Under the pieces are notes generated by a model. The model did not search any database and was not told the DNA's origin. It worked only from the letters and a program-made list of their open reading frames with translations. Position numbers and translations under genes: made by a program. Positions 4,602 to 62,340 of a stretch of DNA of 64,000 nt are shown piece after piece; position 1 is the first letter of the stretch, and the number at the start of each line of letters is the position of its first letter. Source of the DNA: Ceratodon purpureus (taxonomy: Eukaryota; Streptophyta; Bryopsida; Pseudoditrichales; Ditrichaceae); assembly GCA_014871385.1 (NCBI GenBank), contig CM026426.1:52872478-52936477 (forward strand), read 5' to 3'.

Positions 4602-4791
4602 GTGAATGGGATGGTGCAGGAGCCGTAGTGAAGCGTGCTTTACGCATCGAACAAATTCGTAACCCTGAGAGGCAGCTGCAAAACGCACTCCAATGTGTTG
4701 AGTTCTTACAGCAAGGCTTCTCTTATAGAGAGCCTTCTTCGTATGCAGGGACCATTAGGAGAGATATTCACCGTACCTTTTGGCACGGAGG

Positions 4792-28412: not shown

Positions 28413-28661
28413 TCACGTTTGCTTGCGGCGCCTGACTGGTTTCTTGCATGCTTGACTCTTTGTTTTCTTCCTTGTGCTCCTTCTTAACAACCTGGTTGGC
28501 TTCTCTATTGAACACTTCCTTGGCTTGTCACGTTGTGACTCTAATGATGGCTTGTTTCCCTGGTCCCGACACTTCCTACTCCTGCAGGTACAGCTGAAGC
28601 CGGATATATCCCAATCATCGGACTTGAAATCCTTGCCATAGTCTTGCTACACCCGTCCCCC

Positions 28662-28704
<43 letters not shown>

Positions 28705-29940: not shown

Positions 29941-30185
29941 TCAAATGGAGACTTGTGTGCACCTCAAATGTTTTTTGCAAGTGATGGAATACATACAAAA
30001 ATGTATTCTACAACAGTACGATGCCATAGACCCAAAGGAGCCTAGGTATGTACCTCTCACAATACAAAGTAGAGTGTGCAATTTAACTTTGGCCACACTT
30101 TGAACTGCCTACACAATCCTATACAACCCTACAGAATCCTAGAACATCAGTTAGTCAGAGGACGCCAACACAAATTTCACCAATT

Positions 30186-31740: not shown

Positions 31741-31997
31741 CTGCAATCACAAAAAATAATCTGAATTAACAAGCTGTTTAGAATTACTTCTACTATTGCA
31801 AAAAAAACTAATAGTACAATATTATGAATTGAACCTCAATGGTTGGCTACTACAACCTTTTACATTGTACCTTTTTAGTAAAACGTAGTACTATTACATG
31901 ACGTAAGTACTATTAGTACCGAACGACCCAAGTACTAATACTACCTAAATCAACAGTACACAATGAAATCAGGTATTAAGTTGTAATATGTACTTAC
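31741..31997 (-). other. GTAC-dense RP intron, copy 1
   Basis: The donor is GTAAGTACAT and the acceptor is GATTGCAG on the minus strand. About eight GTAC motifs occur in 257 bp, one expected. It is in the same position and phase as the intron 55257-56278. Confidence 0.75.
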
Positions 31998-33861
31998 CTG
32001 TGTTGGGACATCGTCGACGTGCTCGTTCAGCTCGTTCCGAAAGTAAACACGCCACCTCATCGTCACACACAGTCATCTGGGCAGCTACATCTTCAACGAC
32101 AACACTCCCTGGACCTCCCCACACAAAGCTACGATGCGAGTCTAGATCTACAAGTTTATCACTACAGTTTGCCGCGACACATTTATAACCACTCTCGTTA
32201 GTAACCTTCGCGGAGAAAGGGTGATACATGTGCTTACAAGATGCAATCACAATGTCACTCTTGGAGAAATTAAAACCGCAAAGGGCACATTTAGTGATTT
32301 TTAGGAACCTGCGTTTGGGAGAGTCGTCCTCTCCAAACGCACTGTCAGGGTACACGAGTGGAACTTGGTTGAGGCTAGCAGCGTGTCTTCCATACTTAAT
32401 GCGTTCAATTTTGACCTTCACCCCTTCGCACATCTGGATCTTCTGCTCTCTTAGGAGCCGACACTCTGTTGCTCCTAAGTCTTTCTCCAGCGCCTCGGGC
32501 TCCTTCCTTGCTAGGGCTTGCTTTTGATCCTCCAGAAGCTCAGCAAGCACATTCTTCTTTCCTTCATTTCTTGGGTGTTCCACGTCACTGCTATGAAGTT
32601 GAGCCAAGTTAGCCTCGTAGGATTCCACCACCAAAAGCGCCAGTCGCTTGTCTTATGCTGCTGATTCCTTAGCCTTCACCACCACCTCCTCGTCCATCTT
32701 CAATCCCTCTATCTCCATCAAGAGTATTGTATTGCATTGTATTGTTTAGATTGGATTTGCAATGCTAAGTCTGAAAGAAATGACCATGTAGAACCGGGAA
32801 ACCCTTCAATTTTTTCATTTAAAATTTTGTACGCTGTATTCTTGACTCTATAAGTATACAGACAAGTATCTCAGAATAACAGTACTCAAATGATACAAAC
32901 AACAAACATTTCACATTAACACTAATCAGATTACCTAGACAACTCTAATCAACTAAGACATACAAATTAAACTTGGTCGAGGTAGTGTACTTACCTTTGT
33001 CCGCGCTGCATCCTCCACCCTAACACCCGGCTCCAACTTGACCGCGGCATCAACCTTCAAGCTCTTCCAAGTGCGCTTTGTCACCGTAGCCCCCGTGTTG
33101 ATAGCAAATTGCAGCTTTGAAAGATCCTGCTCATACTTCCTTTGCTGGGAGTTGTTTGTCTCTTGACCATACAACTCCCAATTCACGGAATTCTTTTGTC
33201 ACTCTAACACGACATCGACTGCAAACTGCTTCGTCACGGATCGGGGAATCTCATCTGGTCCGTGCTGGTACACAATTGGATGCAGGTACCTAATGTGGTT
33301 GACGATCTCTCCCACCTTGCAATCGGACCAAGAGTATCCGCCGCGACCCTTAACACCCTCCGGCCTAAATCCTAACTCCTGCATCGTCTTGTCCGAGATA
33401 TCCTTGTCTTTCCGACATTGATGCGGGTTGATGGACTTAGGGCTACACTCTAGGTTGTATCTGTCGCGGAAGTCCTCCCAAATTAACAAATCTGGAGGGG
33501 CCTTCAAAATCACTATCAACTCCTGCAAATCTTTGATGGTCAGGAAGCGCTCCTCTTCCTTCACAGAAACCTCAACAACCTTGCTACCCCCAGACTTAGT
33601 CATCCCCACCTTTGCTCCCAACCCAGATTCCACATTCCCTTTAGACTTAATCTGTCCATCTGGAGAACTAGTTTTCACTCCGTCTCCCCCCCCCCCCCCC
33701 CCCCGGACTTGGACCTTTTTGACATTGCGAACACCCAACAAATTGACTAGCAACGTAAACCTATTGAGCAAAACTTTGAAGAAAAGAATCCAACCTGAAA
33801 CCCTAGACCAACAGAGGAACCATATCCTAAATACTCGCGACAAACTGAACCCTAAGCGCAA
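31998..33861 (-). pseudogene. RP gene copy 1, first part: conserved domain, coiled coil, RING-like finger
   Basis: The likely start is near MTKSGGSKVVEV (about 33600); the frame is open further upstream through a poly-Gly run. The first domain has LELIVILKAPPDLL-like helices, then GGYSWSDCKVGEIVNHIRYLHPIVYQH, matching SGFYWQGCEVQEVVDRVKYLHPILYQH of copy 2. After an intron of about 350 bp (32641-32993, not in copy 2) a charged helical part leads to CALCGFNFSKSDIVIASCKHMYHPF and CVAANCSDK with HRSFVWGGP, a C-x2-C ... C-x-H-x2-H ... C-x4-C pattern like RING or FYVE-type zinc fingers. One in-frame stop follows VVLE, and one finger Cys is Ser (YHPFSAK against YHPFCAS). Confidence 0.65.
33686..33704. 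repeat. 19-base cytosine run
   Basis: It lies in RP copy 1, where the minus strand reads as a short poly-Gly run. Confidence 0.9.
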
Positions 33862-34399: not shown

Positions 34400-34600
34400 A
34401 GTACAACACCTACAAATGGGAAAAAATGTACAAGTGAAGTACTTATGAAATTTGCCCAAAGTGTACCCGGTGTAGCTTGCCAACACCCATAGACGTCCAA
34501 GAATGGTACATTGCCAATTTAAAGTAATTAGGCACTTGAATATCATCATTGCTTTCTTGACATTGGTCAATGCTCAACTGTATAAACCTTTGTACATTTG
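34400..34600. other. GTAC-rich zone at the presumed right edge of element copy 1
   Basis: Five or more GTAC motifs occur within 200 bases, as in the subterminal zones of copy 2. The next feature to the right is an unrelated transposase relic. Confidence 0.4.
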
Positions 34601-43899: not shown

Positions 43900-46444
43900 C
43901 GACATAGTTTTTCTTGTAGTGCAAGCAACGGTAGTTGAAATTGTGCGGAGCGAGGACGAGAAGTATAACGCACACCGCCTGGTGTCGAAACACGGAAACT
44001 CAACTAACATCCGGATAACACTCAAAACGAGCGTAAACTCCCGTATTGTCAACTAGGTTCCGAGTATCGTCCAGGGATTCAATAGTGCTTTGTCCGGCAG
44101 TTACTTTTAGTCGTTCTCAGCCTCCTTATTGCTCGGATAGTATTTCCGGGACGTAACTCTTCTACTCTCTTCTCTGTTACTTCGGGTGTTTCGTCAACAA
44201 ACCCCAACGTCTCGGAAACGATGCTACCTCACAACTGAATTAGAACACTCTGGTTAGCAGGTCACACAGGCGGCCGCTTCCGATCCGTGAGACTACAACG
44301 ACAAACCGATCCGGATTTGAAAGAACCAAGATCTGGTTATCCCTAGGTGACCCGTACCACTTTCCGAATCTCCCTCTCACAGAGTGCGGAACCTCTTCAG
44401 AAGTTCAAGGAGCCCGATCAAGTACCCCTCGATCCGCTTCGACCTTAGTGACGGCTATTCCGCGTGAGGCTGAATTGGGGACGGAACAGTGAGGCTTCAA
44501 CTCCTACGACAACCCGCTCAATCTTTCCGCTCAATCTCAGTACCATTCCAATTTGGGTCTTGTCACAACTCCCATCACCTTCCTATCCGAGCTATAGCGG
44601 AACTCTCAACACCCTCTCAGATCATTCACACTTGGCTAGAAACCACGCACAGTACTTGCAAAACACGAATACTTTACTAATAAGGAATATAGGGAGAAAA
44701 CATGCGAAACGAAGACCCGGCTTGCATTGCCTTCCCCGTTTAAGTAAGCAGGGGCTTTCACAAAAGCGGCGGCGCCGAAAGTTCAATCAAAAACTCTAAT
44801 TCCTAATCATCTACCTTGAATTCTACTTTACGGTTAATCCGGATCTCGCCGGTACGATACCTACTCCTATAAATCCGGAAAGTGACTGGTAGTTCCAGTG
44901 CGAGGAATCTATCCCGTCTTCGGCTTCTTGTGGCTCTCCTGCTCCTTCTCCTTCTCCTTCCACCGGGGCGTTCGGGGCTAGGATCCTCCTGCCTTCGCTG
45001 CCGGATCCGCCTAACGTCTAACTCTCCGTTCCTCCTTCGATTCCTTTGACTTGGTATCCAAGGAAGACCGGGTAACGACCCGAGTCTTGGGAGACTTGGG
45101 AGTAATTCTCGAGGGAGGAGTTCCGGATGTCGGGTCCGAGTCTCAGTTCCGGCTGTCCCTACCGGGGAACTCCCGTGGGTATCCGAGTCAGATCCGGAAA
45201 TTGTAATCGGTCCCTTCTCCTCGGGATCCTTCCTCTTCCTCAGAACCATCTTAGCACCGGAAGAGTCGGCAGGAGATTCCGCGACGGGCGTTACGGTTGG
45301 GGTAGGAGTCACGGTCTCGGTCCGGGCCGTGGGTGAAGGGGTGAGTGTCCCCTCCTGAGTCACTCGGATACGTCTGGGTGGCGAAAGGGATCTCCTCCAT
45401 TCACTTCCGGCTACCTCTCCTTGGTGAACCGGAATAATCATCATTGGACCTACCGTCCGGGAAACGATCGGCTGCACGGACCGGGTCACTTCTTTCATAA
45501 CCGTCTGCTCCTCGGATCGCCTGACAGTGACTGTAGTTCCCGTAACCTCTACCTGCCCAGTGGGAATCGCGCAGCTTTGCTGAGCCACACTGGCTCCGGG
45601 TGACGCCTCCTTGGCCACAACCTCTCGGATCAGATCCGCGATCGTCCGAGCCGGTGCGAAAATGTCCGAATCAACGGCCCTATCTTCTTCAAACCAGAGA
45701 TGTCGCTCCTGTGGGGTCCTGAACTTCGCCCCACAAGATTCCCCTACCACTGTCCGAGAGGGAGATCCGGGAAGTCTCGTTCCGACGATGGGACTTCCGG
45801 TTCCCGGATTGAGCAATTTCTTCATCAACTTCAGGGTCTTGTTCATCGCGAACTCGCACCTGGACAAGATCGTGATAATCCTCTCCCTATTTTCTAATTG
45901 AGCCGGCTCCAGCACATTCTCATCGAACAACTTGGCCTTGTTGACTACATCACTCGGAACTCCCTCCAACTTCCGGATCTCATCCAAAGTCTGCTCCTGC
46001 TCGGCATAGAACTTACGGATCTCCTCGCTCTTCGTTGCCAGTTCCGAGGAAATTCCTTGATCTGAAGCTCCAGTCGTTGCTTCTCGCTCCATAACTTCCG
46101 TGCATCCTTCAGAAGCTCCACCTCTCGGATAACCTCCTCCAGTAAACAGCCCCCTAGCGATGTGCAGACTCTCCGGAACAATGACTCAATCCGATCGTAA
46201 GTGGCCTGGGCCCGATGAGTTTCTTCCCTAAGTGACCGGAACGGGTCAACCGGAAATCCTCGCTCGGAACTGACCTCCTTCCGTACCGTGTCATCTCGGG
46301 CCGTGGAGGGTTCAGCGTGCTGCGATGTGGCTCGTTCCGATCGTGACTTGGAATGGGCCTTCGTTGCGGTGGGATTCAGAATTATCTCCGTGTTGTCTCC
46401 CCCTTCCATGGACGCCGTATCCGAGTCGTCCTCGTGATGCTCTA
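43900..46444 (-). mobile_element. Retroelement-like gene, 3' part (fossil), cut by the DDE-SET element
   Basis: On the minus strand the main open stretches are 46092-46440 and 44803-46092. They encode a charged coiled-coil region (KSEEIRKFYAEQEQTLDEIRKLEG), a Ser/Pro/Thr-rich part, and an Arg-rich tail (RRRRRSRRATRSRRRD). There is no protease, reverse transcriptase or integrase in view. Codon use is rich in CGG/CCG, unlike the AT-rich neighbours. The other part of the same gene lies at 61194-61853. Classification as a gag-like protein of a plant LTR element is an inference; about one break is seen here. The downstream stretch 43900-44800 has the same composition and probably belongs to it. 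Confidence 0.45.
46441..46444. repeat. Target-site duplication TCTA, left
   Basis: TCTA directly precedes the left terminal repeat and is repeated at 61190-61193 directly after the right one. Confidence 0.75.
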
Positions 46445-46462
46445 GGGTGGAAGTACACTAGA
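46445..46462 (+). repeat. Left terminal inverted repeat, 18 bp
   Basis: GGGTGGAAGTACACTAGA; its perfect reverse complement is at 61172-61189. The following 400 bases hold about 11 GTAC motifs. Confidence 0.85.
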
Positions 46463-47305
46463 CGAATGTACTTTTTGAGTCACAGTACAATATACATTGA
46501 AGGCATAAATTTGTACTTGCAATTACTTGTACTCAAAAGCTTTTTCCTTGGTTTTTGTTTTGTTTTTCCAAATACTACATATGTAGAGATCTCCTGTTCA
46601 TTATTAAATCAGTTAGAAAAGCAAGTTAAGTGTGTTCAATTAGTACTATTGTGCAGTAGTACAAAAAAGTCAAACAGTACTCGTATGTGAGAAAAGTACA
46701 AAAGTCTTCAACATCAAAAGCTCTAAATCTGTTTTTGTTTTTTGCAAAGGAGATAATAAGGAATAGCCTATTGGAATCTATCCTTGATTTTACAAGTACA
46801 TAGTTAATTTGGTCTGTACATGGAAGTAAGTGCTGGTTTCAGTTGCAACGGAATACGAAGTGGAAAATTATGATTTTTTGTAATCGGAGGCATGATTTCT
46901 GACAGCGGCACACATTTCTACAATGGCCTTCTCTCAAATAAAGAGAATTGTCATTTTTCCGTTACTTGACCCTCAACGTGTTCCTGCGTGCTACTTGTAC
47001 AAAATGTACGCATGAGTATATGATGTACATGGTATCTGTCATAACTACTGCCTCGTTGTTTTCAACAGATCCTGTTTTCCCGGGCCGCCATGCCATGAAG
47101 GCGCCGCCACCTCTTGATTTGTCCACGTCATCGTCTCTCTCGTTGGTTCCTCTGATCGCCCATGCAGCACACTGTTGCGGCTTTGCTGTAGCATGCTGTT
47201 GCTTGCGAATTGAAGATTATGCTTGGTGCTGTAGTTTAGCTTGTATGCTGTGGGATAACTCTTGTTCAAAAGTTCAAGGGCGGTTTAGGGTTTCCTCTGT
47301 GAATA

Positions 47306-47653
47306 ATGTCAAAGTCCACGCAGCGGCAAGTTGTTCTTATTCAGAAACTGATAACATCATACTTTACTACAGATGTGATCACTGAGTTCAGTTCTTCTTG
47401 CTGCCATTCATTCTGTGAGGTTTCTGATTCGGATTATGTTGAAGAAACACCAGTGTCAAAGCAAGGGAATCGTGACTTCTATCTAGGTAAGTGCAACAAC
47501 GTAGATGAGTCTCCTAGGCGGTCTTTATTCATGAGTCCAGTTTCGTTATGTTATTCTGGAAGTAGCTTTGACAACACACCTTCTCTTTCTGAGGGAAGGC
47601 TTTCAGTAGGGTCTCCTACTGCTTCTTCTGAATCTATTGCGTTCAAGAAGTGA
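47306..47653 (+). CDS. Short ORF upstream of the transposase, unknown function
   Basis: This is 115 codons from ATG, Ser/Thr-rich, with SDSDYVEETPVSKQGNRDFY and a C-terminal part rich in Ser-Pro pairs (SVGSPTASSESIAFKK). A GGTAAGTG donor lies within it (47487), so it may be a spliced leader exon instead. The transposase ATG follows 180 bases on, behind an acceptor-like TTTTCCTAG. No family is recognised. Confidence 0.35.
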   Translation: MSKSTQRQVVLIQKLITSYFTTDVITEFSSSCCHSFCEVSDSDYVEETPVSKQGNRDFYLGKCNNVDESPRRSLFMSPVSLCYSGSSFDNTPSLSEGRLSVGSPTASSESIAFKK

Positions 47654-47831
47654 GAAGATTGATATTCTACGGTGAGTTTTGGTTGCAATCTCATGAAAGA
47701 GTAACTCTGTCTTTTTCTTCTATAAGCTTATCGTGCATCCTGAACTCGTCGACCATGAATTCTCATTCAGTTTTTGATAACTAATGTGTGTTTCTTGTTT
47801 TCTACGTCTATTATTTTCCTAGGTTCCAGCG

Positions 47832-50800
47832 ATGGGTAACACTGCTAAGAGGCAACGCTTGCGACAGGGTATCAGCCGCCCAAGTCCAGCAGCGAGGCTT
47901 GCTGAAGCTCGCTTGCAGGAGGACTTACGGGCAGTAGTTACAGAGAGGGCGAGAGAACGGAAGGCCCTTCAGAGAGCACGAGATAGACAAAGACACGAGG
48001 AAACATTGGTGTTAGCTTCTGTGCCGCCGGATCATGAAGTCGAAGATGCTCTAACTGCGCGGGAGTTGAACCGAATCTCCCTTCGCATAGCACAGTACAT
48101 AGTCGAAGAGTTGAGAAGTTGTCCCGGTCCATCTAGTAGGAGAGATGTTATGGAGAGGGTCATGCGTCATAACACTATTTCCCCTTTGCTACCTGTTTAC
48201 TATGCTCGGCCACAGGTAGCAAAAGTTATTCATTCTTTCATTGAGAACTTCAAGAACGAGTTACAGTTAGTGAAGCAGGCTAACTCTAACGAGCTGTTGG
48301 CAAGGAAGAGTGCCTTGTTAGATGCCGCAGTTAGCCAGGGGATCGAAGGAGTTAGGCCGTTGTCACGTGTTTTGGTTACAACACAGAAGAGCATCAATAT
48401 TGCGTTGAACAGAAGGGTTTACGCCGCCGACAGTCAAGACACGGTTTGCAGTCTTCGCTTAAATCCGAAGAAGAGAGCAGGGCTATCTGAGTATATCAAA
48501 CAATGCATTCATGCATGGTGGAATGGTCAAACAAAAGTATCACCGAACAAGAAGGACATCGTCAAGCACAGAGTAGGTCGAAAAGACTGGGCCGAGCCTC
48601 ATCCAACACATTACTTGTGCGAGCCTCAGGTGAGTTGTAACTTATTGATATGAGTTTGTGTAATATGATTAGTCCAAATACTTAGTCTTCACACTTTCGG
48701 TATCTCACAGGACAAAAAAGATATCTAAAGATTCTAGAGAAGTCGAGAACAGTTACTTTGTAGTTTTTGTACAGCATGTTTTGCCTAGGCTGCATACCAT
48801 GGTACATAATTTGGATCAAAACATTGCAAGACAAATTACTATATATAGTCAATTTTGGGTGTGTACTCTTTGTAATGTTAACTTCTATCAGGGTCCTGTT
48901 GGAGTGAAGTATAAACTGTACTGGTTCTGTAATTTGGAGGCAATATATGATATAGTAATTCTGAGGACTACAAATTAGAAGTGGAGAAGTGGTACCATGC
49001 GTACTTTACGTTCATAGTAAGTCTTAGATGTGCGTCGTGATGTACTTTTTGACTTGGGACTTCCACTAGTTGCGATGTAGCAGTACAAATGTCCATAAGA
49101 TGGTTCTTCATTGTACTTATTGTACGAGTAGAATTTCACTTTGGTACACAGTTTACTTGTTTCTATTTTTTTAGCTACTTTTGAAAACTTATCAATAACT
49201 TAGAATATAGTTCAGTACTTGGAGTCATGTTGATACGTGGCGTTGCGATGTATTGTACTTTCTTAGTATACAATTTATACTTGCATCAATGTCAAAAGTA
49301 CTGAGGAGTACCCACTGTGATTTTCTGTGTTTTTTGTAGAGTAAGGGTGTTAGTTTTCTACAATTAGTACATTGTGTTGTATGTTTTGTAAGAGGTTCTG
49401 AAATGAGGGTCCTAAATTGTACCTGATGTATACTTGTGCGTGATTGGCAGACCTCGTTCTTCTTGCGCTTCTAAGAGGTCCATCCAGAATGTACTGTGCG
49501 GCAAAGGGCTTTTGAGAGGTTGAAGCCTTGGTGGGTGCGAAAACTGAAGGAGAGGAATACCTGTTGTTGCATATACCAGGTGGAGATGGACATGATGAAG
49601 GCTGGATTGAGCAACCTCAGAGACAAAGTCAGGGGGCTCCATGTGCATACCACCTGTGATTGTGCGTGTATAGTGTGCACAGGCAGTAAGGAAGGGACTT
49701 GTTGTGCACATGAGAATACTTTCAAACGAATAACTCTAATGTAGGAATCATGTGTTTGTGCAAAGGGAGAATTTGATGTGTGGCACAGACTTGAATGTCT
49801 CATGGGCAACTGTTCTTGTTGTGGTTTCCAGCTCTTTCCTATTTGTCCGCATGAGTTGTCTGGTTCTAACACCTTTCTTGTTAGATGGAAATGTTTCGAG
49901 TACTACCAGGTGGGAGTGGATGCTCACTCTAGAAGAGTGAAGAAACGGCTTAGAGAGGCTTTCAGAGAAACAGCTGCTAACGAATTCCTATCTTATATGG
50001 AGAAAACAGTGACCACCTTTATCACGCACAACTTCAAGGCGCGATGGCAAGATGAGCAATGCCAATTGATGATGAAGAACGTTCCGGAGGGGGTTGTTGT
50101 GTCACATATTGACTATGCAGAGAACTACACTTTTGCCATCCAAAACGAGGTCCAGAGCTTGTACTACTTCAGTACTAGTGTGACCATCCTGGTGCACATT
50201 ACGATGTGGAAAGAAGGAGAGTAGACCATGAAGCAGACTCACTTCTACATATCTGATGATAAGGCTCACGATTCAGCTTTTGTTCAACATTGTCTGACGT
50301 TGCATTGGGATTGGCTCGGTGATTCAGGGTTGACACCGGAGGAACATTGGGTCTACAGTGACGGGTGTAGTTCCCAGTTTAAGTGCGCAACAGCGATGTA
50401 CTTTGTTGCACGCTACCCAGCGCTCACGGAGGGCTGCAAGATGCGGTGGAACTACTTCGAGTCGGCTCATGGAAAAGGAGAATGGGATGGGGCTGGTGCT
50501 GTGGTGAAGAGGGCGCTTGCTGCTGAGCAGATCCAGAATCCACTCAGGCCCTTACAGAATGCCGCTCAAGTGGTGGCGTTCCTGGAGGAAAAATACACAA
50601 AGCGTGTTGCCAGCTCATATGCTCATGCCAAAACTTCCCCTCTTTCACGTGTATTTTGGTTGATAGGAAATACAGAGGTGGATCATACTGATAAGAGTAT
50701 CAAGTGTAACACTTTGCCCAGCTCAAAGAGTCTATATTCTATTATGGGCTTTTCTAGGTCTGATCCTACTATGCTTAGAACTCGAGAGTTGTCATGCTTC

Positions 50801-51358
50801 TGTGTCCCGTGTATTGATGGTGATTGGACTGAGTGTGAGAATCTGTCGCATGTGCAGGAGTGGACTGTACAGAGGCTCTGTCCATAGAGTGCAGGGGCCG
50901 TAGCACAGCAAATTGAAGAAGTTGACGACGAGGCTAACTGGGTGTATGACGGCATTTCAGAGGAGGTCGGTGATTTGGTGGACATCAGCGACAATTTCAT
51001 GATTCTAGCAGAAGAAGAGAACGAAGACGGGGTGGAATTCTACATTCTCCAGTGTGAAGCAAAGAAGTTTGTGTTAGCAGAGCCCATGACTTGCCCTTGG
51101 GGGGGGATATTTAGGGCTGGAGACGTTGTGATCAGAGCAAAGTATTACAAGAAGTATGGACGTGGTGAGAAGACATATGTACTCTGTGACAAAGCAGTTG
51201 ATGCACATGTCAATGCCCATCTGGTTAGAGCTTGTAAATTCCCTATGGTTCTAGCTCCTCACAGGGTTAAAGGTACTCCTGTATACACAATGTCTAGTGA
51301 AACGCAAAGGATATGTGAAGATGCCTTGCGAGAGTGGTGGGCGTTCAATGAAGATTAA
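47832..51358 (+). pseudogene. DDE-type transposase, copy 2
   Basis: Exons are 47832-48629 and 49451-51358. N-terminal 266 residues: basic and helical (ARERKALQRARDRQRHEETL), then a conserved block RHNTISPLLPVYYARPQVAKVIHSFIENF with LLARKSALLDAAVSQGIEGVRPLSRVL. Exon 2: zinc-binding clusters CCCIYQVEMD, CDCACIVCTGSKEGTCC, CLMGNCSCCG with ICPHEL; core SHIDYAENYTFAIQNEVQSLYY (Asp 1), FYISDDKAHDSAFVQH, WVYSDGCSSQFKCATAMYF (Asp 2), SAHGKGEWDGAGAVVKRAL (acidic residue 3); then CFCVPCIDGDWTEC and a beta-rich tail with MTCPWGG and YYKKYGRGEKTYVL. Four in-frame stops: one is TAG where copy 1 has TGG. Near-complete otherwise. It likely drove movement of the element. Confidence 0.85.
48630..49450 (+). 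other. GTAC-dense intron in DDE copy 2
   Basis: GTGAGT donor and TTGGCAG acceptor. About 17 GTAC motifs in 821 bp by hand count, against about 3 expected. Confidence 0.7.
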
Positions 51359-52293
51359 ATACAAGTTGGCTCACTATGTACACAGATTTCAGGATTGTTT
51401 CTCATTTGACGTTGGTTTTAGTAGTACTGGTCCCGTGATGATACAAGTCAAACAAATGCTTGGGTATTTGTTTGACTGAAAGTGAGCTCCAGAGATATCC
51501 CGCTATCCAAGTGCTCCCCCTTTTTTTTGCTACAGTCATCTATTGTCTGGCATAGTAGTCTGTGATTAAGAGAACCTGCAATCCCTTTCTTTTTTTTATT
51601 CTTTATAATCTTCTTTTTATAATTTCATTTTGTACCTTGTAATGTCACTCTCTTTTACGTTTGTGCCTCTTCAGTGTAGTATCACCCATTCCGTATTTCT
51701 TTTTTCATTTTGAGTCAGGCTGGACGATCATGGTTCTACATTTTGCTGGATATTAGATACTGTAGTTTTTTTCCTTTTTGTTTTGGGCCTTCTACAGGGA
51801 GCACTGGATAGTGGTATCTCAAGAGCTCATGTCTGAGGATAGCTATTCAGACTAGCCAAACAGTAGCATTGAAACATAGAACTAAGATTACTCAAACAGT
51901 GCCATCGAAACATTCATTCTAAGAATTAACAAGTGAGTTTATAAACTCAACTTCAAGCTTCCAGATCCAGATTTTGAATGGTTGTATATTTATCTGAGTT
52001 GTTCTATGTTTGCTACACAATAGTTGAAGTTCCAAGAGTCAAAAAAATCCTTGCCTATGGCCAACTTGTACATGTCTCGAGCTCCAAAAAATGTACAAAG
52101 AGTATGTTCTAAATACACACGGTACTACAAACAGTACATGGGCTGAACCATTCTTCAAAATCTTTGCATTTCGCTTGTTTGTACATGTAGTATATCAAAA
52201 ATGTACAAATAGTATGTTGTAGATTTATATACGGTAGTACAAACAGTACATGGGCTGAAATATTGTTCAGAATAGCACAACACAGATGTGAAG
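51359..52293. other. Intergenic region between the converging genes
   Basis: No gene. T-rich runs after 51580 may be the 3' end of the transposase transcript. A direct repeat of about 100 bases with TGTACAAAnAGTATGTT and GTACAAACAGTACATGGGCTGAA occurs at about 52090-52150 and 52200-52262, again GTAC-rich. Confidence 0.5.
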
Positions 52294-53405
52294 TCATCTT
52301 CTCCTAGGTGGTTTCCTGGTTGACCTTCGGATGGCAAGTGGTAAGGCATTGTCTCTACACATTTTACTCTTACACTTACAAGAAAACTGAGGTAGGTCCG
52401 GATCATCATTGTTAAAATTAGTGCCATAGTCCCAAGTTAGTTCCTCTCCAGGCCGTATGATACGATTTGCAAAAAATGCTACATGATAGAAGCGGCGATC
52501 CACACTCTCTATCAAGACAGGTACATCCACTAGGTTAGAATCTTCACACCTGTAATGAGAGAGGCCCACCGTCAGGTCAGATTGAAAACGTGAGGACAAA
52601 GACCGCTGAGTATATAGAATATGGTCGCAAGTTCTAACCTGTGGTTCAAAAACCTGGCCACATTTCCAAACCGAGAAGAGTCCAAGCATGGTGCATTGTG
52701 GTCGTCCAGTTTCCGCTCACTGGCCCAGTCAGCATCAAGTTGCAAGCTATAGGACTGACCCCTAACTACCTCCAAGTTCCTAACCATTTGCTCAGCATTT
52801 GTTAAAATCTCTCCCGTCAACTCAAAAACAAACGCACCTCTAGGAATTAGCTCAGTCGTCCGAATCCCCCACCCCGTAAGGGCTGTACGAAAAACCTCTA
52901 CTTGATACTTCATCCCCTGCTCGACAACACGATTGCCACAATCACTATGACACCTACACTTGACATTGCACTCCTTAACGAAAAGACGACCCACATAACC
53001 CCGGCACACTGAATCTCCATTAAAACATCGTGCTGCCTTCTTACAGTAATGTGCATCTTCTTCGTTGCGTGGCTCCAGGTACGCGTCCTCCACTTGGCCT
53101 CCTTCAGTGTATGCAACTCCACCGACTGGACTGGATTGGCATGCACAAGTACCATTCGCCCCCAAGCATTCCGAGGAACAAAGACAGAAGTCCCCGGGGC
53201 GGAGGCTTTCAAGGGTGGTAGGCACGACTGCTTGGTCAAAGACCACACTAGAATTCATGTATTGAAAATATGTCATAGCAATTTCAGACTGACCGACAAG
53301 GACAGGAATCCTCTCGAGTCCCTTGGACAAGTCTGCTGCATCATACCAAGCTTCAGCCTGGTTGAATCCCATCCCAACAGACCACCTTCCCCTCGTCATG
53401 GTCAT
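52294..53405 (-). CDS. SET-domain histone H3 lysine methyltransferase (SUVR/SU(VAR)3-9 type) carried by the transposon
   Basis: Two exons, 53405-52639 and 52549-52294, join at NHR and CEDSN with consensus splice sites; 340 codons without a stop. Residues 1-75: family-specific leader with DLSKGLERIPVLV. Residues about 76-175: pre-SET Cys cluster (CLCSSEC, CACQ, CKKAARC, ECNVKCRCHSDCGNRV). Residues about 180-310: SET with GWGIRTTELIPRGAFVFELTGEIL, RFLNHRCEDSN (cofactor-binding NHxC motif), FFANR, GEELTWDYG (ELxxDY motif). Post-SET FSCKCKSKMCRD, then basic RRSTRKPPRRR. Known relatives methylate histone H3 Lys9; the substrate here is inferred. It lies 267 bases after the RP stop and converges on the transposase. 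It is not a captured fragment, because a diverged copy sits in the same place in element copy 1. Confidence 0.88.
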
Positions 53406-53671
53406 AAAAATAGAAGAGACAAGTTCTAAGACTGCAGGGGAGGACTACAAATAAAGAAATAAAAATCAGGGCGGCAACTAGAACAACCGCATGGGGAAAA
53501 AAACAGACAAGCCTGGAACCTTCCCTGTAAGGAAGACCTCACTCATGAGGTAAGATACATTGATATACCTGCAAATCCATTCTATACAGGCATTGTACCG
53601 CAGCTCAATAGATCAAAAAACAAAAAAACTAACTACAAAAGGCAATCCTACAGATTGCTCAAGCCTGTATT

Positions 53672-55256
53672 CTATGTGGCACCACCTCTCCGCCGTTTCT
53701 GTGAGAGATTGCCACCTACCTTGCCGCCCTTCACCTTCTCCTTCTTTCTCCCCTTCGCCCTAGTCTTCTCAGCAGATTCCTCTGCCGCTTGCTCTGCCTC
53801 CTTGGCGGTGCGTGCCCTGGTCCGCACATTGACCTCAGGGACAGCCGCGGGACTCCCACTCACTCCAACAATCCCAGCGAGCTCCTTGTATGTGGTCTTG
53901 TCAGCTGAGTACACATTCTCCACCGCCGCACATTGTCCCGCGCCAACATCATCCTCCACCTCCGGCCCCTTTGCCCTCTTTGCTCTCAGCTTGAAAGGAG
54001 ACCGGGGCGAAACAGACTTCATCACCTGGGCTCCTTCTCCCTCCGATGCTCCCAACGAGGCCACACCAGCCGATCCTTCCACCGCGGCTGAATCCTCTAC
54101 GGCTGCCTCTCCTTCCAAGCAGACTGAAGCTTGCACATCCAACCCCCCCTTCTCTACACCAGTCCTCCCAGCATCGCCCTTCTCCTTTGGAGCCTGCTCC
54201 TTCTCCTTTAAAGTACCCTCAGACCTCCTTCTTGATACCGCCATAAATTTTGCAGCAGCCTCCTCCGAAACCAGTGTCTCTACCAAACCCCCAACCGTGG
54301 TCCCCGCTCCATCCCGAGGAAGTTCTCCCCAAAGCGCTCTTCCCTTGCGTCCCGGGAGGCATAGTGACCCCGGCTTGGCCATTTCATTCCTCTGAGGTTG
54401 CGGCGGCGTGTCCTTCCCCTTCACTCCCTGCGGTCCCTTCTTCTCCTCTGGCAGCACCTCCGCTCCCTTCACTCCATGTGGCCCCTTCTTCTCCTCTGCC
54501 ATCACCTCTGTCCCCCTCACACCCTGCAGTCTCTTCTCCATTCCCGTCACCGCTTCTCCTTCCACCTCTGCCCCCTCCTCTACTGCCTCGGCCTTCTTCT
54601 TCCCGCTCCCAACAACCCCTGCAGTCTCACTCTTCTTCTTCCCGCTCAGACCAACCACAACCCCTCCTTCAGCCTTCTTCCCGCTCCCACTGACAACAAT
54701 ACCAACAACCCGACCACCCTCACCCCCTTCAGCTTCCCCTGGACTCATCACTTCGACCAAATCCTCCTCTTCCACATCTCCTTCCCCACGGTCTTGGCTG
54801 TCTGGCTGTTGTAGGCTGCCTTCTCCACCGGCTGCCTGTGAAGGCTTGAACTCCATACTGACAACGCCGTCTCCTCCATCCTCTGTCTCCTCATGTGAGC
54901 TCGCATCATCTTCCGAGCTCCCATCCGAGTCGGTAGTGCCGGAGCTCGAACGTTCCGGGACATCTTGGGATGGGGCTCTTCATCATCTGAAGACTCCTCT
55001 TCCGACCCTAGATCTGGTTCAAACCCCTTCAAGTGAGTGCCCTCAACGAGAGCCTCCATGACCACCTTCTGCACCGGCTTCTCCAACCTTGGTGCCTCTC
55101 TTGAAATTATGCTCTCCCCTCTCAGAATCCGCGGTGGCACCCCACCAAACTCTTGAGGCACGCCTCCAGAGCATGCTGCTTGGCTTGTTCCCCAATCGAC
55201 TGCTCCTCCCGCGCTGTTGAAAGCCTTCTTAGGTGATGCAAACCTGAGGCTAGACC
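53672..55256 (-). CDS. RP gene copy 2, second part (acidic and Lys/Glu-rich low complexity)
   Basis: The exon starts after the acceptor TCGTGGCAG at 55257. It reads GSSLRFASPKKAFNSAGG, then acidic EPDLGSEEESSDDEEPHPK. A frame change or short unrecognised intron near 54960 leads to SSSGTTDSDGSSEDDASSHEE, then SQAAGGEGSLQQ and a long stretch of imperfect repeats (EEKKGPxGVKG; SGKKKAE; EGAEVEGEA). The tail is basic (KTRAKGRKKEKVKGGKVGG, QKRRRGGAT). Composition suggests a disordered chromatin- or nucleic-acid-linked region; no catalytic motif. Copy 1 retains the same joins but little sequence, so function is unknown. Confidence 0.65.
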
Positions 55257-56278
55257 CTGCCACGACACAGGACATTAGAGTCTTTACACATAGTATTAAA
55301 TGTAATTGTAGTCAACTAGCACAAATGAACCAGTACTGTCACTACCTATTGGATTTGAACTGGTGGACCACTTGTACAAGTCTGCAATTCAGAATGTACT
55401 GTAGGACCTGGACTCAATCTATATTTACCATGTAGGACTTCTAGTACCAAGTTAAATAAATACAAGAAATACCTGTTGTAGCTCCGTCAAGTACAGTGTC
55501 GTCTGTGTACAGCACCGTAAGTACATTTCAACCACAATGTAGTACATAAGATACTTGCTCTAAGTAGCCGCATGTACCTGAAGATTAGGCCTACTATACA
55601 AATATGACTTTTCCAGCACCTAACCAAAGTCACCAAGTACTATGCAATACACAATAATCTATGGAATTTAGTGAAGCAACTTCTTGTACACATGTTGCAT
55701 TTACTGAATTTAACACTAATATACAAATATGACATTTCCAGCGCCTAACTACTACCTGCAAGTACTATGCAACACACAGAAATCTATGGAATTCAGTGAA
55801 GCAACTTCTTGTACATATGTTGCATTCAGACTTTTACACTGATATACAAACATGACATTTCCAGCGCCTAACAGAAATCACCAAGTATTATGCACTACAT
55901 ACTAATCTATGGAATTCATCAAAGCAACTTCTTGTACACATATTGCACTTAGACTTCGACACTAAGGTATACATTCAGTCACATGCCGTTAGTGAAATTG
56001 ACCTTCTTATACACTGTGCAAGCTTAACTTCTCTAAGATGACGATCAGATGAGTGATCGCAACCACAGGTATGGAGTGTACAACCTTACTAGCCAATGGG
56101 TGTACTGGTTATACTTCCTATAACAAACTTCTAGAACTCACAAGAAGTGGAACAGTCGCATACTACAATCTGAGCTACGTAGTACAGAAGCTCTGAAATC
56201 CCTACAAAGCACAACATTGACTATTCAAGTAACAAGACACATAATAAGAGTCTGAAAATTAGGTTTAAGCAAACTTAC
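55257..56278 (-). other. RP intron copy 2: GTAC-dense, with a tandem repeat
   Basis: Donor GATG then GTAAGT (56278), acceptor at 55257; phase 1, as in copy 1. About 17 GTAC motifs in 1,022 bp. Holds the 124-bp tandem repeat at 55595-55965. Confidence 0.75.
55595..55965 (+). repeat. Tandem repeat, three units of 123-125 bp
   Basis: Units start with TATACAAAYATGACWTTTCC at 55595, 55720 and 55843. Each contains CTATGGAATT and GCAACTTCTTGTACA at the same offset. Identity between units is roughly 80-85%. Confidence 0.8.
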
Positions 56279-58103
56279 CATCTGAAGGCACCTTGGCCAT
56301 AGCCTGGTTTGTTCTCTCTTCCATCAATCTCTTCCTTTCTTCGGCCAGTCCTAGCATCCTAGCCTTCTCCACCAAATCTGCATGTGGCTCCCCCCAGCCA
56401 AAACTTCGGTGCCAATCCGGGTGACACATCTCCCCACACCCTGTGGCCACGCACTTACAACTTTGTACGAAGACAACTGAAGCACAAAAAGGATGATACA
56501 AGTGTCTACAGGAGGATACAACCATGTCATTCTGTGGAAATGGGAAGGAACACAAGCAACAAGTTGTAATCCTGATCTGCGAGGGCTCATCTAAAAAATC
56601 GACCCCGGGCAGAATTGATTCCCCAGCCGCATACACCATTGGACTTGGAGCGAAGTTCAGATTGCTCCTCCCCTGTTTCAATTGAAACTTCTCTGCTGCA
56701 AGGGCATCAAACTGCAGCTGGCCCAAGTCCAACTCCCTCGTCAACGCCTGGATCTCAGCCTCGGCAGTCCGCAGCTCCTTTGCGGCCGCGACCATCTTCT
56801 CCTCCTCTGCTAGCTGCTCCTGAATTCCCTCCATCTTGATCTTCTCCTTATATACATCCGCTCCTTGCGACTCATGTGTTCTTATCAATGCCGTCTTCTG
56901 CTCCTCCTGTTTCTTCAGCTGGCCCATGCCCCATTCAGACTGTTTGGTGCTACAAACGGCGCGGTCAAGCCGTTGAGCCGCCTCCTTCTTCAGCTCCCGC
57001 TTGTGCTTTTGCTCCAAATGGATGGCCTGCATTAGTCCCTCCACGCATTGCAGCCGATCCTCCACTGCCCCCTTGGCCAACCTCCCTCTACCCTGATCAC
57101 ATGCCTGCGCATCCTCCTGCAAACACACACCCAAGGCCATGGCTGATTCAAGTCCCCCCCTTGATTCACCCCGTGCCCCACGACCCCGCACCCTCACCAC
57201 GTCCCCTTGCTCCCCCTTCCCTTCCCAACCGGGCTCAACCTTGATGCCGCGCCACTCCTATCCTCGCACGTCCACCTTCTTCTTCCCCTCTTCGCACTTG
57301 GAATCTGCGATACTCTTCCTCAGCTCCTCCAACTTCCCTCGATCTAACTTGTACCGACTCCTTTGTCGCTTGTTAGTCTCCTCCCCGAATGCACACCAAT
57401 TCACCCGACCTCCACCCTCTTCGTACTCCAAAGCAACTCCTTCTGCAAACCTGATGGTAATCAGGTTCAGATTCTCCTCTTCTTCGTGTTGGTACAGAAT
57501 CGGGTGCAAGTACTTCACCCTATCCACCACCTCTTGAACCTCGCAGCCCTGCCAATAGAATCCGCTACGGCCCCCATCCCCATACGGTTTACCGAATAAC
57601 CTACGCACCGTGTCGGAGGAGACTGTTCCGCGACGAAAGTGGTGGGGATTGTCTCCCTCGTTGGAGATTCCATACTCTGCTGCAAAATCTGCCTTCTTCA
57701 GCTCCCGTGGAGGCTTCTTCAACCTGTCGATTTCTTCATCAACGTCCTCCACGCACAGGAAGGCCTTCTCGGACCGCACCGGTCCCTTTCCCTTCTTCTT
57801 TGCTGTGGACCTCGAGCCTGCGGCTGGTTCTCCCTCCTCCGCGTCCCGGCTTGGTGCCCTCCCTCGGCTCGTTCCTCTCCCCTTCTTCTCGATCTCCTCG
57901 ACAGCAGGCTCGCTCGCAGATGTCCCTCCTCCGGCTCCCTCCCCTCGTGCCTTCTTCCGCGGACCCTCCCTTCCCCCTTCATCTTCATCGCTCCCCACAC
58001 CTCGACTTCTTCTCTCTCGCGCTCCCTTACTTCTCCCCCTCCTCGCGCTGTCCCTGTCTCCAGAGCGCGCGCTTCGGCTGCGCTCCATCGCTGCCCCACC
58101 CAA
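56279..58103 (-). pseudogene. RP gene copy 2, first part: conserved domain, coiled coil, RING-like zinc finger
   Basis: One frame from ATG 58103 to the splice donor at 56278, 608 codons, with a single TAG at 57258-57260. Residues 1-125: Arg/Ser/Gly/Glu-rich. About 135-280: domain also found in copy 1, FLCVEDVDEEIDRLKKPPREL, SGFYWQGCEVQEVVDRVKYLHPILYQH, FAEGVALEYEEGGGRVNWCAFGEE. About 340-480: coiled coil (KKQEEQKTALIRTHE; EKIKMEGIQEQLAEEEKMVAAAKEL). About 510-570: CCLCSFPFPQNDMVVSSCRHLYHPFCAS, CKCVATGCGEMC, HRSFGWGEP, a C-x2-C/C-x-H-x2-H-x2-C/C-x4-C zinc-finger layout resembling RING. Ubiquitin ligase activity would be inference. Single stop aside, it looks intact. Confidence 0.7.
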
Positions 58104-58479
58104 TTCCTCGAGCTTGGTTATGTTTGGGTATCGAAGATGGTTGCCTAGCTCTGTGAGCTTCCAGCTGAGGCTAAAACAAACCTATCAATCGCCAATTGCT
58201 CTCACTACATGCAGTATCGTAAACCACTCCCACCATAGCCAAAACCTCTCCACATCAATCCCACTACCAGAATCACAGCTTCCCCTCCCCAGCTCCTCCA
58301 ACACTCTCATGTAACCACCACAACAATTCCACTTCCACAACTAGGGCTCACACTCTTTCTGCCTACCTTCAACACACCGTCACGGCGCCAAGCTAACCAA
58401 CACCCGCCTAAACCCTCACAATCCAAGCCGACCAACACCCGTAGAAACCCACATTACGGCTAACTAAAACCCTAAACCA

Positions 58480-58700
58480 TTACCCCTAGCAATCCCCACC
58501 CGCCATCCCTGGTTGAGGCGCAGCTCGCAGACTCCACAAGCATGGCAGACCTCGACCCCCAACTCGGGAGGTGCGAGACGAAGGTGACCCCCGACCACCG
58601 GTCACCCAGCAAATTTCACACCTTCCCGACCGCCGGTCACCGGTCACCTCCACATTCTCCATCGACGGTAACCGGTGACCGCCGGTCACTCAGGTGGGTA
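58480..58700. promoter_or_regulatory. Cluster of CCGGTCACC / GGTGACCG words upstream of RP
   Basis: In 58590-58695 the words ACCGGTCACC, GACCGCCGGTCACCGGTCACC, GGTAACCGGTGACCGCCGGTCAC recur in direct and inverted orientation, about six near-copies of GGTCACC/GGTGACC in 110 bases. They lie about 500 bases upstream of the RP start and could be a regulator or transposase binding field. Confidence 0.4.
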
Positions 58701-58799
58701 ATCACTTCCTGCCGTTTTCTAAGCCGTCACTTCAAAAATTTCCAGCTACCGTTGCGTGTTAACATCAATTCACATTTGGTGGTATACTCCCACACTTAA

Positions 58800-60850
58800 T
58801 TCTATCTTATCCTAAATCTGACTAATTTACTTAATTACCATTCTTAAAAAATCCCCAAAAATTTAAAAATGCCTAAAATATTTCTTGTAACTTTAAACTT
58901 ACATGTGAAGCTTTAAATAAATTTTCCGCGTTTTCACAATGACATTATACACTACGGTGAGGGTTTCCAAGAATAATAAAATATTTACTACACATAATCA
59001 AAATTTCATAAGTAGATCGCCACTCGAATGATGAGAAAATCTCTCAAAGTATTATTTCATCTTAGAATTAAATTGGTCTAATAACGTTAAAAAAAAGCAC
59101 TTTCAAATGAATTTTTTCATTCATCCCTTCAATTTTTTATTTCTTTCCTTTTTGCAAAAATGAGATTCAGGTATCTAAATTGTTACATCAATGCGTACCA
59201 CTTTTTTATTATTTTTCCTTGAAGTAGTCGTAAATGAAAACCAACTAAAATACTTTTACTTCACTTTGATTTCACAATTACGCCACTCTTCAGTAACTTC
59301 TATTTTTGTCCTTGAAGGAACGTTGATTTTTTTAAATTAATTCTTTTCTAGTTTTTCATCTTATTTAACGTGGGGAAGACAACAAGATTTGTCTATTGAT
59401 TTTTTTCTAATTTCCTATCATCAAATAAACTTAAAATAGATCTCGTTTTCTTTTCCATTTTTAAATGAACAACATATATAAAGCAATCTCTACAATATCT
59501 TGATCTTTTGTCTTTGGAAAAATGTCCTTCTCAATTCTTTCACTTCTTCTGTTTCTTTAAATGTTTCATATTTTATTTAAAGGGGGGAAGAAATAATCTT
59601 GGTCTATTATTTTTTCTAATAATCTTGATCTATTTTTTTTTCGTTCTTCTTTTTTGATATATCATATCAACTCTTAAGAAGGGGCGCACAAAATGACGTT
59701 CATTCATTTATTTTTTAAATTTATCTCTCTATTAATAAAATATCTTAAAGTAGTTGCACATGTTAAATGAATATATTAACTATCTCATAGTTTGATTTTG
59801 CACGCTATACTTTTTCCATCATGCTAATTTCTAACGTCTCATGCCTTATTTAAAGAAAAAAATACATATAAACAAATCTACCTTTATTTTAGAATATTCT
59901 ATTTTCAAATTGCAATGACAAGAATCCATTGGCACCCATAACTCTAGGGAATTCACTTTCATTTCTCTATTACATCACACTTCAATATAGTATTCCTTCA
60001 TCCTTTAACTAATTTTTTTCACTTTTTATAATTTTTTCCCCTTTGTTCTTTTATCACCATATTTCATATTTGTCTCTTTTTTTAATCCTTCTACTATTGT
60101 TATTTTTTTCTTCTACTTTTTTCCATTTTACTTATTTTTCTTCCTTCTTTTATTATCGTGTTTCATATCTGTTTCTATTTTATTTATCCTTCTATTATTT
60201 TTATTTTCTTCTTCTATTTTCTTTTTCCTTTCAATTTTTTCCTTCTTTGGTCTTAATATTTAATATGTTATTTTAGGGGGGGAGGAAATGATGTCCATAT
60301 TTTAATTTTAATTTTTATATTATTATTAAAACAACTTCAAAAAGCTATACATGAAAAAAATTAAAAAACCAAAAATTAAACATGTTGTATAGAGTACTTT
60401 CTTGCATTCTCCTTTTCCCACCATGCTAATATCTTAACTTCTCATGTTCTCTTTTATAAAATGATGAATTCTAGGAAGAAATCTCAATTCAAGTACGGAG
60501 GTTTATTTTCAAAATACTAAATTAGGAACCATATACAATTCTAAAAAAAGAAGTGTATAAATAATCGATACTCATGGTTTTCAATTTATATTTTTTATAA
60601 CAACGTATTAAAAAGAAAATTTTATTAGAGCCATGCTATAATTTAATTTCAAAAGCTTGCATAATATTTTGGAATGCTTCAAACAACCAATCACTTGACT
60701 GAACTAGACTTCATCCCAAGTTCATCTAAAAAAAATCTGAAGTGGAGACAAGTCCATAACTTTGAGACCTTTAACGAATATACAATTTTCAAGAGCAGGA
60801 TGATTGCACATTAGAAGGATGATTGTAATCAAATGACCAATCTCGGAAAC
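58800..60850. other. AT-rich non-coding interior of the element
   Basis: No protein-like frame. Pyrimidine-rich (TTTTC, TTCTTTT) low-complexity dominates, particularly 59100-60260. Confidence 0.5.
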
Positions 60851-61171
60851 CGTATCTGTTCAAGGCTAGGATGCTAAGTGCTTCAATGAATTGCAGATCC
60901 TGCCGCCGAGGCTGGACATCAACTCCCGCCACTCCATGTATTTGAATTCCGCCACATGTCATGTCGAGATGTGCTGGCCCATATGGATCTAAATCAAAGC
61001 GAATCCATAGTGTCAGAATAGACTATCCTGATTGGCTAATCCCAATCGCCTAACCTCTCTTCTCCCAAGGAATTTCAACGGCTCAGATTGAGTAAGGCAG
61101 AGTACTTATTGTACACTTTAGTACTAAAAGGTCTCAATGGTACACTGGAGTTTTGCCAAAACTGCACTACC

Positions 61172-61189
61172 TCTAGTGTACTTCCACCC
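61172..61189 (-). repeat. Right terminal inverted repeat, 18 bp
   Basis: TCTAGTGTACTTCCACCC, the perfect reverse complement of 46445-46462, preceded by a zone with four GTAC words in 65 bases and followed by the TCTA duplication at 61190-61193. Confidence 0.85.
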
Positions 61190-61193
61190 TCTA

Positions 61194-62340
61194 CCTCAAA
61201 CCCCGCCGGAACCTCCTGGAAGGTGAGGAGATTCTTCGCAATCGTGTACTTCACCTCCTCGTGATCCATCAGCAAGCCACCTACATGGTAGAGGTGATAG
61301 AGGTATGGGGTGATCGGAGTTGGCTTCTTTCCGATCGCGGGTACCAACTTTTGCACGGTTTCCGCTATGAGTGCAGCCCAGTTCACCGGACGCTGACCCG
61401 TGTAGGCTCCGAAGATGGTGTTTCCGACTGTGATGGTGACCTGTTCCGGTTTCAACGGATACAGAATTGGAATGAGGAAGGCTAGGACATGTCTCTCCCT
61501 CCTATCCTTGTAGGCGTCTACCACGAATCCGTTCTTCTGATGGATCTTCCCGTGGAACCTACCTTGCACGTACTTCTCCGTCTGGGTTGCTTAAAGGTGT
61601 CCTTCCTGCACGAAGTCGTAACACTCCGCCCATACTTCCGCGCTCCACTGAGTAGGCCGGCCTCGGATTGTGTTATCCCACCTATTATCCGGACCTTCTA
61701 GGATTCCGTCACCATCACCTCATCCCTCAGCAACCAAGGTCGCGTAAGTAACCCCTCGCACCTCATCCGGGTGAGATCGTCAATCAACTCGTTCATTTCC
61801 CGCTCAACCCTCGGAACTGCGGGGCTGAGAACTCTACACTGAACGGGCGCCATAGCTACGTCTCAATTCTCTCCCTTTGCGAGCCGACAGCAAGAAACCC
61901 GGCAATCCAACTGCTAGTGAATCGGAAAAGACAAAACACCTCACCGCTCTTTCACTCTCTACTCCCAGTCCGCAAAAGGAACTCCAAACCCTAACACTCC
62001 CGCCTGTGTACTCAGGGAATCATAAACGCTGCGGCGGCATGTAATAGCAGCCGCCACCGTACCGAGCTCAGCGTTATTCGAGTCATGATGACTTCCGCGT
62101 CATTTCGGATCCCGAACGCTGTTACAGTAACGGTCAGTTCTCGGAATGTCAACCCGATCCGAGTTTTCTCTTCCGAGTTCCGGGATCAAGGTTCCGAGAA
62201 TATCTCCTGTGTTAGCTGTTTTAAGGATTCTAGAGCATCGGGTTTGTGCTAACTCTTAATGCGGCTAGTGTCTAGCTAGTTTTTACCTAATTAACCAAAA
62301 AAATGAAAAATTAATTGAATCCTAACTCCAGTTGGGGCTT
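61194..62340 (-). mobile_element. Retroelement-like gene, 5' part (fossil), cut by the DDE-SET element
   Basis: The minus strand from ATG at 61853 encodes an N-terminal region (MAPVQCRVLSPAVPR), then, past a break, MQGRFHGKIHQKNGFVVDAYKD, a helical core with LIPILYPLKPEQVTITVGNTIFGAYTG and PVNWAALIAETVQKLVPAIG, ending PAGFEV at the target duplication. It has the same CGG-rich style as 43900-46444, in the same orientation. The stretch 61860-62340 is of the same composition and may be its leader or long terminal repeat. About two breaks. Family unknown; gag-like is inference. Confidence 0.45.

Follow-up and report, generated by a model that had tools for sequence, protein, structure and literature searches.

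Transposons are usually regarded as targets of histone H3 lysine 9 (H3K9) methylation. In Phytophthora, HarbingerS and MuDR elements carry a SET histone methyltransferase gene (PMC12730594), the proto-Helentron-Pi element carries a Clr4-like SET protein (PMC4067079), and the 21.5-kb Sola1-1 element of Ectocarpus has a ParB/DNA-methyltransferase gene opposite the transposase strand (PMC12477816). In VANDAL21, the protein VANC21 binds a short motif in noncoding parts of its own element (introns, intergenic stretches and ends), partly in tandem repeats, and brings a loss of DNA methylation there (PMC5735166). Here we describe two DNA transposons, element A and its diverged relative element B, in a 64,000-nucleotide stretch of the Ceratodon purpureus genome (GenBank assembly GCA_014871385.1, contig CM026426.1, positions 52,872,478 to 52,936,477 of the forward strand; hereafter the window). 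Both elements are bounded, both contain a unit of three genes (a transposase, a SET methyltransferase and a third gene termed RP) under amino-acid constraint, and both carry arrays of the word GTAC; the SET frame of A is intact. As the best explanation of the whole we tentatively propose, with a little less than even confidence, that A and B represent two ancient lineages within a single family of giant cut-and-paste DNA transposons, and that such an element would address its own methyltransferase to itself.

Since the Phytophthora elements and proto-Helentron-Pi carry SET genes, transposons of this kind are already known, and the novelty that an initial annotation of the window had seen in a plant transposon with a separate SET gene is not supported. 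Like A and B, HarbingerS and MuDR are DNA transposons with a SET gene of their own, but they have Harbinger and MuDR transposases, whereas A and B show a 4-bp duplication. Proto-Helentron-Pi likewise bears a SET protein related to an H3K9 enzyme; it is, however, a rolling-circle element, while A and B have inverted ends and the 4-bp duplication. In SETMAR of primates, which is also the best single-sequence match of the SET protein of A, SET stands beside a transposase, but there the two are fused in a domesticated gene of the host, whereas the SET gene here is a separate transposon gene. Sola transposons, Sola1-1 among them, resemble A and B in the 4-bp duplication, a range of terminal inverted repeat (TIR) lengths that includes theirs, giant size and an accessory epigenetic enzyme gene opposite the transposase, the difference being that the enzyme there is a DNA methyltransferase and in A and B a SET protein. 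Among the matches listed in the literature on SET genes in transposons, no SET gene belonged to an element that makes 4-bp duplications, and GTAC arrays were likewise absent.

Element A is delimited by the 18-bp sequence GGGTGGAAGTACACTAGA, which occurs as a perfect inverted pair at 46445 (+) and 61172 (-), with TCTA on both sides, and which has no further site within four substitutions on either strand of the window. Perfect inverted 16-mers lying 5-40 kb apart averaged 0.65 per window in 20 Markov shuffles; the real window holds 185, many of which are overlapping stretches of a single repeat pair, 4803-5654/25693-26483. Joining the flanks of A minus one TCTA yields a 298-codon minus-strand frame spanning the junction, compared with frames of 170 and 171 codons with the element in place. 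Three of the eight joins that drop 0 to 7 bases open a long frame (299, 298 and 297 codons), all in the same frame, so the opened frame backs the boundary but alone cannot fix the 4 bp. Taken together, the 18-mer pair, the matching 4-bp flank and the opened frame place the ends of A beyond chance, which upholds the bounded 14.7-kb element and the older gene in two parts outside it that had been noted at first. The scanned pieces of this interrupted gene (429, 171 and 152 amino acids) gave no Pfam match.

The second, diverged copy with the same gene order was also recognized correctly, and its own ends are added here. The longest inverted pair bracketing the genes of B is GGGTGTTGGCAAGCTAC, a perfect 17-bp repeat at 437 and 34472-34488 with ATAG adjoining it at both ends, which gives an element of 34 kb disrupted by later insertions. 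The ends of both elements start with GGGTG, and each insertion duplicated 4 bp of its target. Joining the flanks of B gave frames of just 53 and 48 codons, and B is therefore without the extra boundary proof that A has.

Gene order and strands are the same in A and B, with the transposase on the plus strand and SET and RP on the minus strand. Over aligned codons, the copies are 43% identical in SET (284 codons), 37% in RP (387 codons, with the low-complexity RP exon left out) and 38, 55 and 49% in the transposase (259, 389 and 203 codons), exon 1 accounting for the 38% and the aligned part of exon 2 for the 55%; in the self-comparison of the window, exon 1 of A matched 1951-2727 at 34%. The proportion of synonymous differences (pS) is 0.74-0.84, near saturation, against 0.32-0.44 for nonsynonymous differences (pN), to a similar depth in all three genes. 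The synonymous rate (dS) came out as infinite in four of the five comparisons, the remaining one giving 3.26, and for this reason no ratio of nonsynonymous to synonymous rates (dN/dS) is quoted. Because synonymous sites are near saturation and amino-acid changes are far fewer, the pattern points to joint descent of SET and RP under protein-level selection; as judged from the two copies, both genes are inherited and selected inside the element, and random capture would not give this pattern. That SET and RP are captured passengers, as in Pack-MULEs, has a precedent in the non-autonomous giant transposons of Ectocarpus, which bear unrelated genes and were likened to plant Pack-MULEs (PMC12477816), but it is very improbable here, given that both genes recur with the same arrangement and direction in two copies with only 38-55% of their transposase residues in common, together with the constraint on the proteins. 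The statement of the initial annotation that the methyltransferase belongs to the element is thus borne out by two bounded copies with the same gene order and orientation, by similar divergence under constraint, and by a SET intron that A and B share, placed within the codon after NH.

Both Pre-SET and SET scored above the Pfam cut-off in both copies (in A, SET with E 1.2e-20 and Pre-SET with E 7.3e-9), and the SET gene of B was matched by tblastn at 29891-28557. The protein of A has the motifs NHRC and LTWDYG and the post-SET motif CKCKSKMC, so its pre-SET, SET and post-SET parts look complete; the residue F of LGFDYG in EHMT2 is W in the aligned protein. A profile of the two sequences found EHMT2 first in the PDB (E 7.5e-39), and among the best 60 of 115 PDB matches the first 27 were chains of EHMT1/2, SETMAR, SUV39H2 and other H3K9-specific enzymes including Clr4, SUVH and DIM-5, followed by ASH1L, KMT2A, SETD2 and NSD-type chains. 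By its domains and nearest structures, the SET protein is of the H3K9 (EHMT/SUV39) and SETMAR class, and H3K9 specificity is likely. The SUVR type named in the initial annotation is not established by these matches, the nearest solved structures being EHMT2 for the two-sequence profile and SETMAR for the single sequence. An element could also gain from a SET protein that interferes with host silencing, for example by acting as a decoy or by methylating a protein of the host's silencing machinery, and so stay active. Transposons do carry anti-silencing factors such as VANC (PMC5735166) and enzymes changing epigenetic marks (PMC12730594), and the observed selection suits any benefit to the element; such counter-defence is nevertheless unlikely, as the nearest enzymes mostly write a silencing mark, H3K9 methylation, and the motifs of all three SET parts look complete in A.

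The third gene, RP, encodes a coiled-coil protein whose zinc motif is weakly RING- or PHD-like, below every cut-off. The RING-like character named at first is weak, the best Pfam match being zf-RING_16 at E 0.012, with 15.6 bits against a cut-off of 27.4. The best PDB match of RP, the chromatin remodeling protein EBS (E 0.084), was not significant, and ten further pieces searched in Pfam, four of them from RP, gave nothing above cut-off. One cysteine of the zinc motif of A is a serine in B. In both copies the RING-like exon ends in a GTAAG donor; the stop after the RING-like part would therefore be intronic, with RP continuing into an acidic low-complexity exon, and in A this second exon contains a frame break. 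The RP gene of B was matched by tblastn at 33546-31990.

The noncoding DNA of both elements is rich in GTAC, a word chosen by eye before testing, with noncoding limits that rest on the splice models used here. There are 68 sites in 7,649 nt of A (8.9 per kb, about 3-fold over control, Poisson P 1.5e-14) and 58 sites in 4,851 nt of B (12.0 per kb, about 4-fold over control, Poisson P 5.3e-18), compared with 101 in 33,947 nt (2.98 per kb) of the control, which consists of the nested insert and the DNA outside the elements; as this control is taken from the window itself and may hold parts of B, the comparison is conservative. With its two repeat arrays removed, A retains 55 sites in 7,023 nt (P 4.2e-10). 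Of 136 four-letter words, GTAC heads the list in each element when scored by ratio to control. Against a second-order model it again comes first in both elements and ranks 90th in the control. Base composition does not explain the excess, because AT-rich control windows have 2.82 sites per kb (17 low-GC windows, with a maximum of 3 per 500 nt). The peaks coincide in A and B, at transposase intron 1, in the RP intron and near the ends (in B, 7 sites in the left 600 nt and 5 in the right 201 nt). Matching introns gave no alignment when the window was compared with itself at E 1e-5, so what the introns of A and B share is the word GTAC and not their sequence. A 9-bp spacing of GTAC pairs, which occurs 5 times in A (P 0.051) and 4 times in B (P 0.53), was not significant.

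VANDAL21 offers a parallel in anatomy: in A, too, a short word is enriched in the noncoding DNA of introns, between genes and at the ends, partly in tandem repeats, but VANC brings methylation loss, whereas A and B encode a methyltransferase, and their word is GTAC. Because A shares this motif anatomy and its SET enzyme probably writes a silencing mark, we propose that RP or the transposase leads SET to the element. The element would normally encode the transposase, the zinc-finger/coiled-coil protein RP and the H3K9-class SET methyltransferase; one of its DNA-binding proteins (transposase or RP) would bind the GTAC arrays and bring in the SET enzyme, which would then methylate H3K9 on nucleosomes of that same element, the mark being limited to copies with GTAC arrays. 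The likeliest benefit would be self-restraint or the steering of new copies into silent chromatin. The narrower version, in which the zinc-finger protein of the element reads the arrays and recruits SET, so that a self-written, copy-specific heterochromatin coevolves with the arrays, is possible but doubtful. The suggestion in the initial annotation that the element marks its own chromatin has thus gained a candidate address in the GTAC arrays of both copies, while recruitment itself is what we infer.

Plant SBP-domain proteins bind a GTAC core. The arrays might accordingly be sites for such a host factor or for the transposase, unrelated to SET, which would then be a separately useful accessory. 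The arrays do reach both ends of the elements; yet both copies also have dense arrays in introns distant from the ends, where transposition needs none, and the Pfam-scanned pieces contained no SBP match, so that we consider this explanation rather unlikely.

Several points weigh against a transposon that directs its methyltransferase to its own DNA. The evidence comes from two copies in one window and from sequence alone. The intactness of the SET gene of A is weak evidence (no stop in 1.0 kb, compared with three in 2.7 kb), and that of B carries one in-frame TAG. As a single sequence, the SET protein of A matches SETMAR best (E 5.2e-23) and EHMT1 next (E 6e-21); since SETMAR has been given H3K36 activity (PMC4593633), the H3K9 specificity is not settled. 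Under the second-order model the excess of GTAC is smaller, with 68 sites against 43.6 in A (z 3.7) and 58 against 41.8 in B (z 2.5), and under a first-order model it is mild in the control as well (z 1.4-1.8 in four stretches) and in the coding DNA of A (z 2.2; z 0.8 in that of B). The right 3.1 kb of A (58089-61189), which is AT-rich, holds only 8 sites, and the last 101 nt account for 5 of these. Pfam found no known DNA-binding domain in the scanned transposase and RP pieces, and the subterminal arrays could serve transposase binding alone.

The transposase itself was assigned to the DDE type at first, and motif and position speak for this, while Pfam, PDB and structure models lent no support. 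Exon 2 of A contains the candidate catalytic motifs HIDYAENY, YSDG and HGKGEWDGAG; HID.AENY, SD....QFK and HGKG are invariant in the transposases of A and B, and GEWDGAGAVVKR continues in both. The conserved acidic motifs form a D..D..D/E pattern, to be compared with the DDD catalytic residues of Sola transposases, and are candidates for the catalytic acids. Four of the five pieces of the A transposase had nothing above cut-off in Pfam, a PDB search gave no credible match, and two AlphaFold2 models were of too low confidence (predicted local distance difference test, pLDDT, 33 and 32) to be used for a fold search. Relatives were sought in viral contigs, where three scans matched 53, 4 and 5 stretches, and in bacterial and archaeal genomes, where one scan matched 97; tblastn confirmed none of them, the patterns of the 53- and 97-stretch scans being without the HGKG motif. 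A DNA pattern of the HGKG..DG motif had 0 matches in viral contigs.

Neither copy now seems able to make a full transposase, and the working state of the element had been overstated in the initial annotation: the transposase is broken in both copies, by three TAG codons in A, where RP has one more. The transposase of B, matched by tblastn at 1951-4783, has two TGA and two TAG stops in its aligned parts, and the displaced fragment adds one TAG. The transposase and RP frames of A would be open if TAG were translated by the host; the four in-frame stops of the modelled A exons are indeed all TAG (RP exon 2 left out), and two TAG codons of B face glutamine in A. This is nonetheless hardly credible, as the A codon at 49742 faces tryptophan (TGG) and the RP codon faces arginine in B, the other two A codons are without a clear counterpart in B, no aligned site was seen with TAG in both copies, B also has TGA stops, and the modelled A exons use 77 CAA/CAG against 4 TAG. 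In these exons, SET has no stop in 1.0 kb, compared with three stops in 2.7 kb; as about 5% of single substitutions are nonsense, three stops in 2.7 kb suggest that a few per cent of positions have mutated. The absence of any change between the ends of A is compatible with this estimate, and neither a date nor a special protection of the SET gene of A is claimed.

As to superfamily, PIF/Harbinger elements make 3-bp duplications, and Pfam holds Harbinger and KDZ models. Three candidates were rejected for the 4-bp duplication and for the four of five A transposase pieces without a Pfam match above cut-off, namely PIF/Harbinger (duplication TNA in Ectocarpus; PMC12477816), MuDR/Mutator (7-12 bp; PMC10741241) and KDZ/Zisupton (8 bp; PMC12730594). 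Helitron/Helentron was rejected as well, these elements being without inverted ends or duplication (PMC10741241), whereas the element here has both. Sola elements have a 4-bp duplication and TIRs of 11-1124 bp (PMC10741241), and A and B agree with them in both respects (TCTA and ATAG; 18 and 17 bp). We therefore call the element Sola-like, by its 4-bp duplication, TIR length and size rather than by transposase homology.

Element B has been rearranged. Its transposase breaks off at about 4790, and a C-terminal part is found in reverse orientation at 17488-16665. Because CCTTTTGGCACG, followed by AGG one base later, is present at both breaks, the arrangement is as expected if a nested insertion split the transposase and a later inversion (or misassembly) shifted one half. 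An unrelated repeat forms an inverted pair inside B (4803-5654/25693-26483, 83% identical), and its ends seem to be part of the insertion that split the transposase. A second inverted pair (15084-16546/20160-21640, 69% identical over 1.5 kb) adjoins the displaced C-terminus, and a 117-bp tandem repeat with 92% matches lies at 12613-12879 in the nested part. Runs of identical bases (C on the plus strand) at 28664-28702 (39) and 33686-33704 (19) fall in the SET and RP regions of B and may be sequencing or assembly errors affecting the frame. Ten pieces of nested and flanking DNA had nothing above cut-off in Pfam, and Rfam and tRNA scans gave no match. The features of both elements are collected in Table 1.

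Table 1. Coordinates of elements A and B, their genes and their GTAC arrays in the window.
Feature	Coordinates	Strand	Details
Element A, DNA transposon	46445-61189		14,745 bp; perfect TIR, TCTA duplication, frame opened at empty site
A left TIR	46445-46462	+	18 bp
A right TIR	61172-61189	-	18 bp
TCTA target duplication, left	46441-46444
TCTA target duplication, right	61190-61193
A transposase exon 1	47832-48629	+	266 codons, start codon assumed; donor GTGAGT at 48630
A transposase exon 2	49478-51358	+	in-frame TAG at 49742, 50222, 50885
A SET gene	52294-53405	-	exons 53405-52639, 52549-52294; intact, 340 amino acids, start codon assumed
A RP gene	53672-58088	-	coiled-coil, RING/PHD-like; exons about 58088-56280, 55256-53672; TAG 57258-57260
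A left subterminal GTAC array	46445-47044		14 sites in 600 nt
A transposase intron 1 GTAC array	48630-49477		17 sites in 848 nt
A GTAC sites, transposase-SET interval	51359-52293		11 sites in 935 nt
A RP intron GTAC array	55257-56279		17 sites in 1,023 nt; 123-bp tandem repeat with GTAC at 55591-55965
A right subterminal GTAC cluster	61089-61189		5 sites in 101 nt
Element B, second diverged copy	437-34488		perfect TIR of 17 bp, GGGTGTTGGCAAGCTAC; ATAG on both sides
B transposase, N-terminal and core part	1951-4790	+	in-frame stops 2251, 2581, 3954, 4287
Transposase C-terminal part, most likely of B, displaced by inversion	16665-17488	-	one TAG at 16931
B SET gene	28416-29963	-	three modelled exons and post-SET stretch; limits approximate
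B RP gene	30238-33720	-	limits approximate
B transposase intron 1 GTAC array	2761-3359		19 sites in 599 nt
B RP intron GTAC array	31741-31997		8 sites in 257 nt
Gene interrupted by A	44806-46444 and 61194-61590	-

In conclusion, a constrained methyltransferase of the element's own, together with a candidate address motif shared by two copies, turns self-silencing by a transposon into a testable question. If GTAC does recruit SET, the element would be a compact natural device for sequence-addressed H3K9 methylation, and thereby a writer counterpart of VANC.

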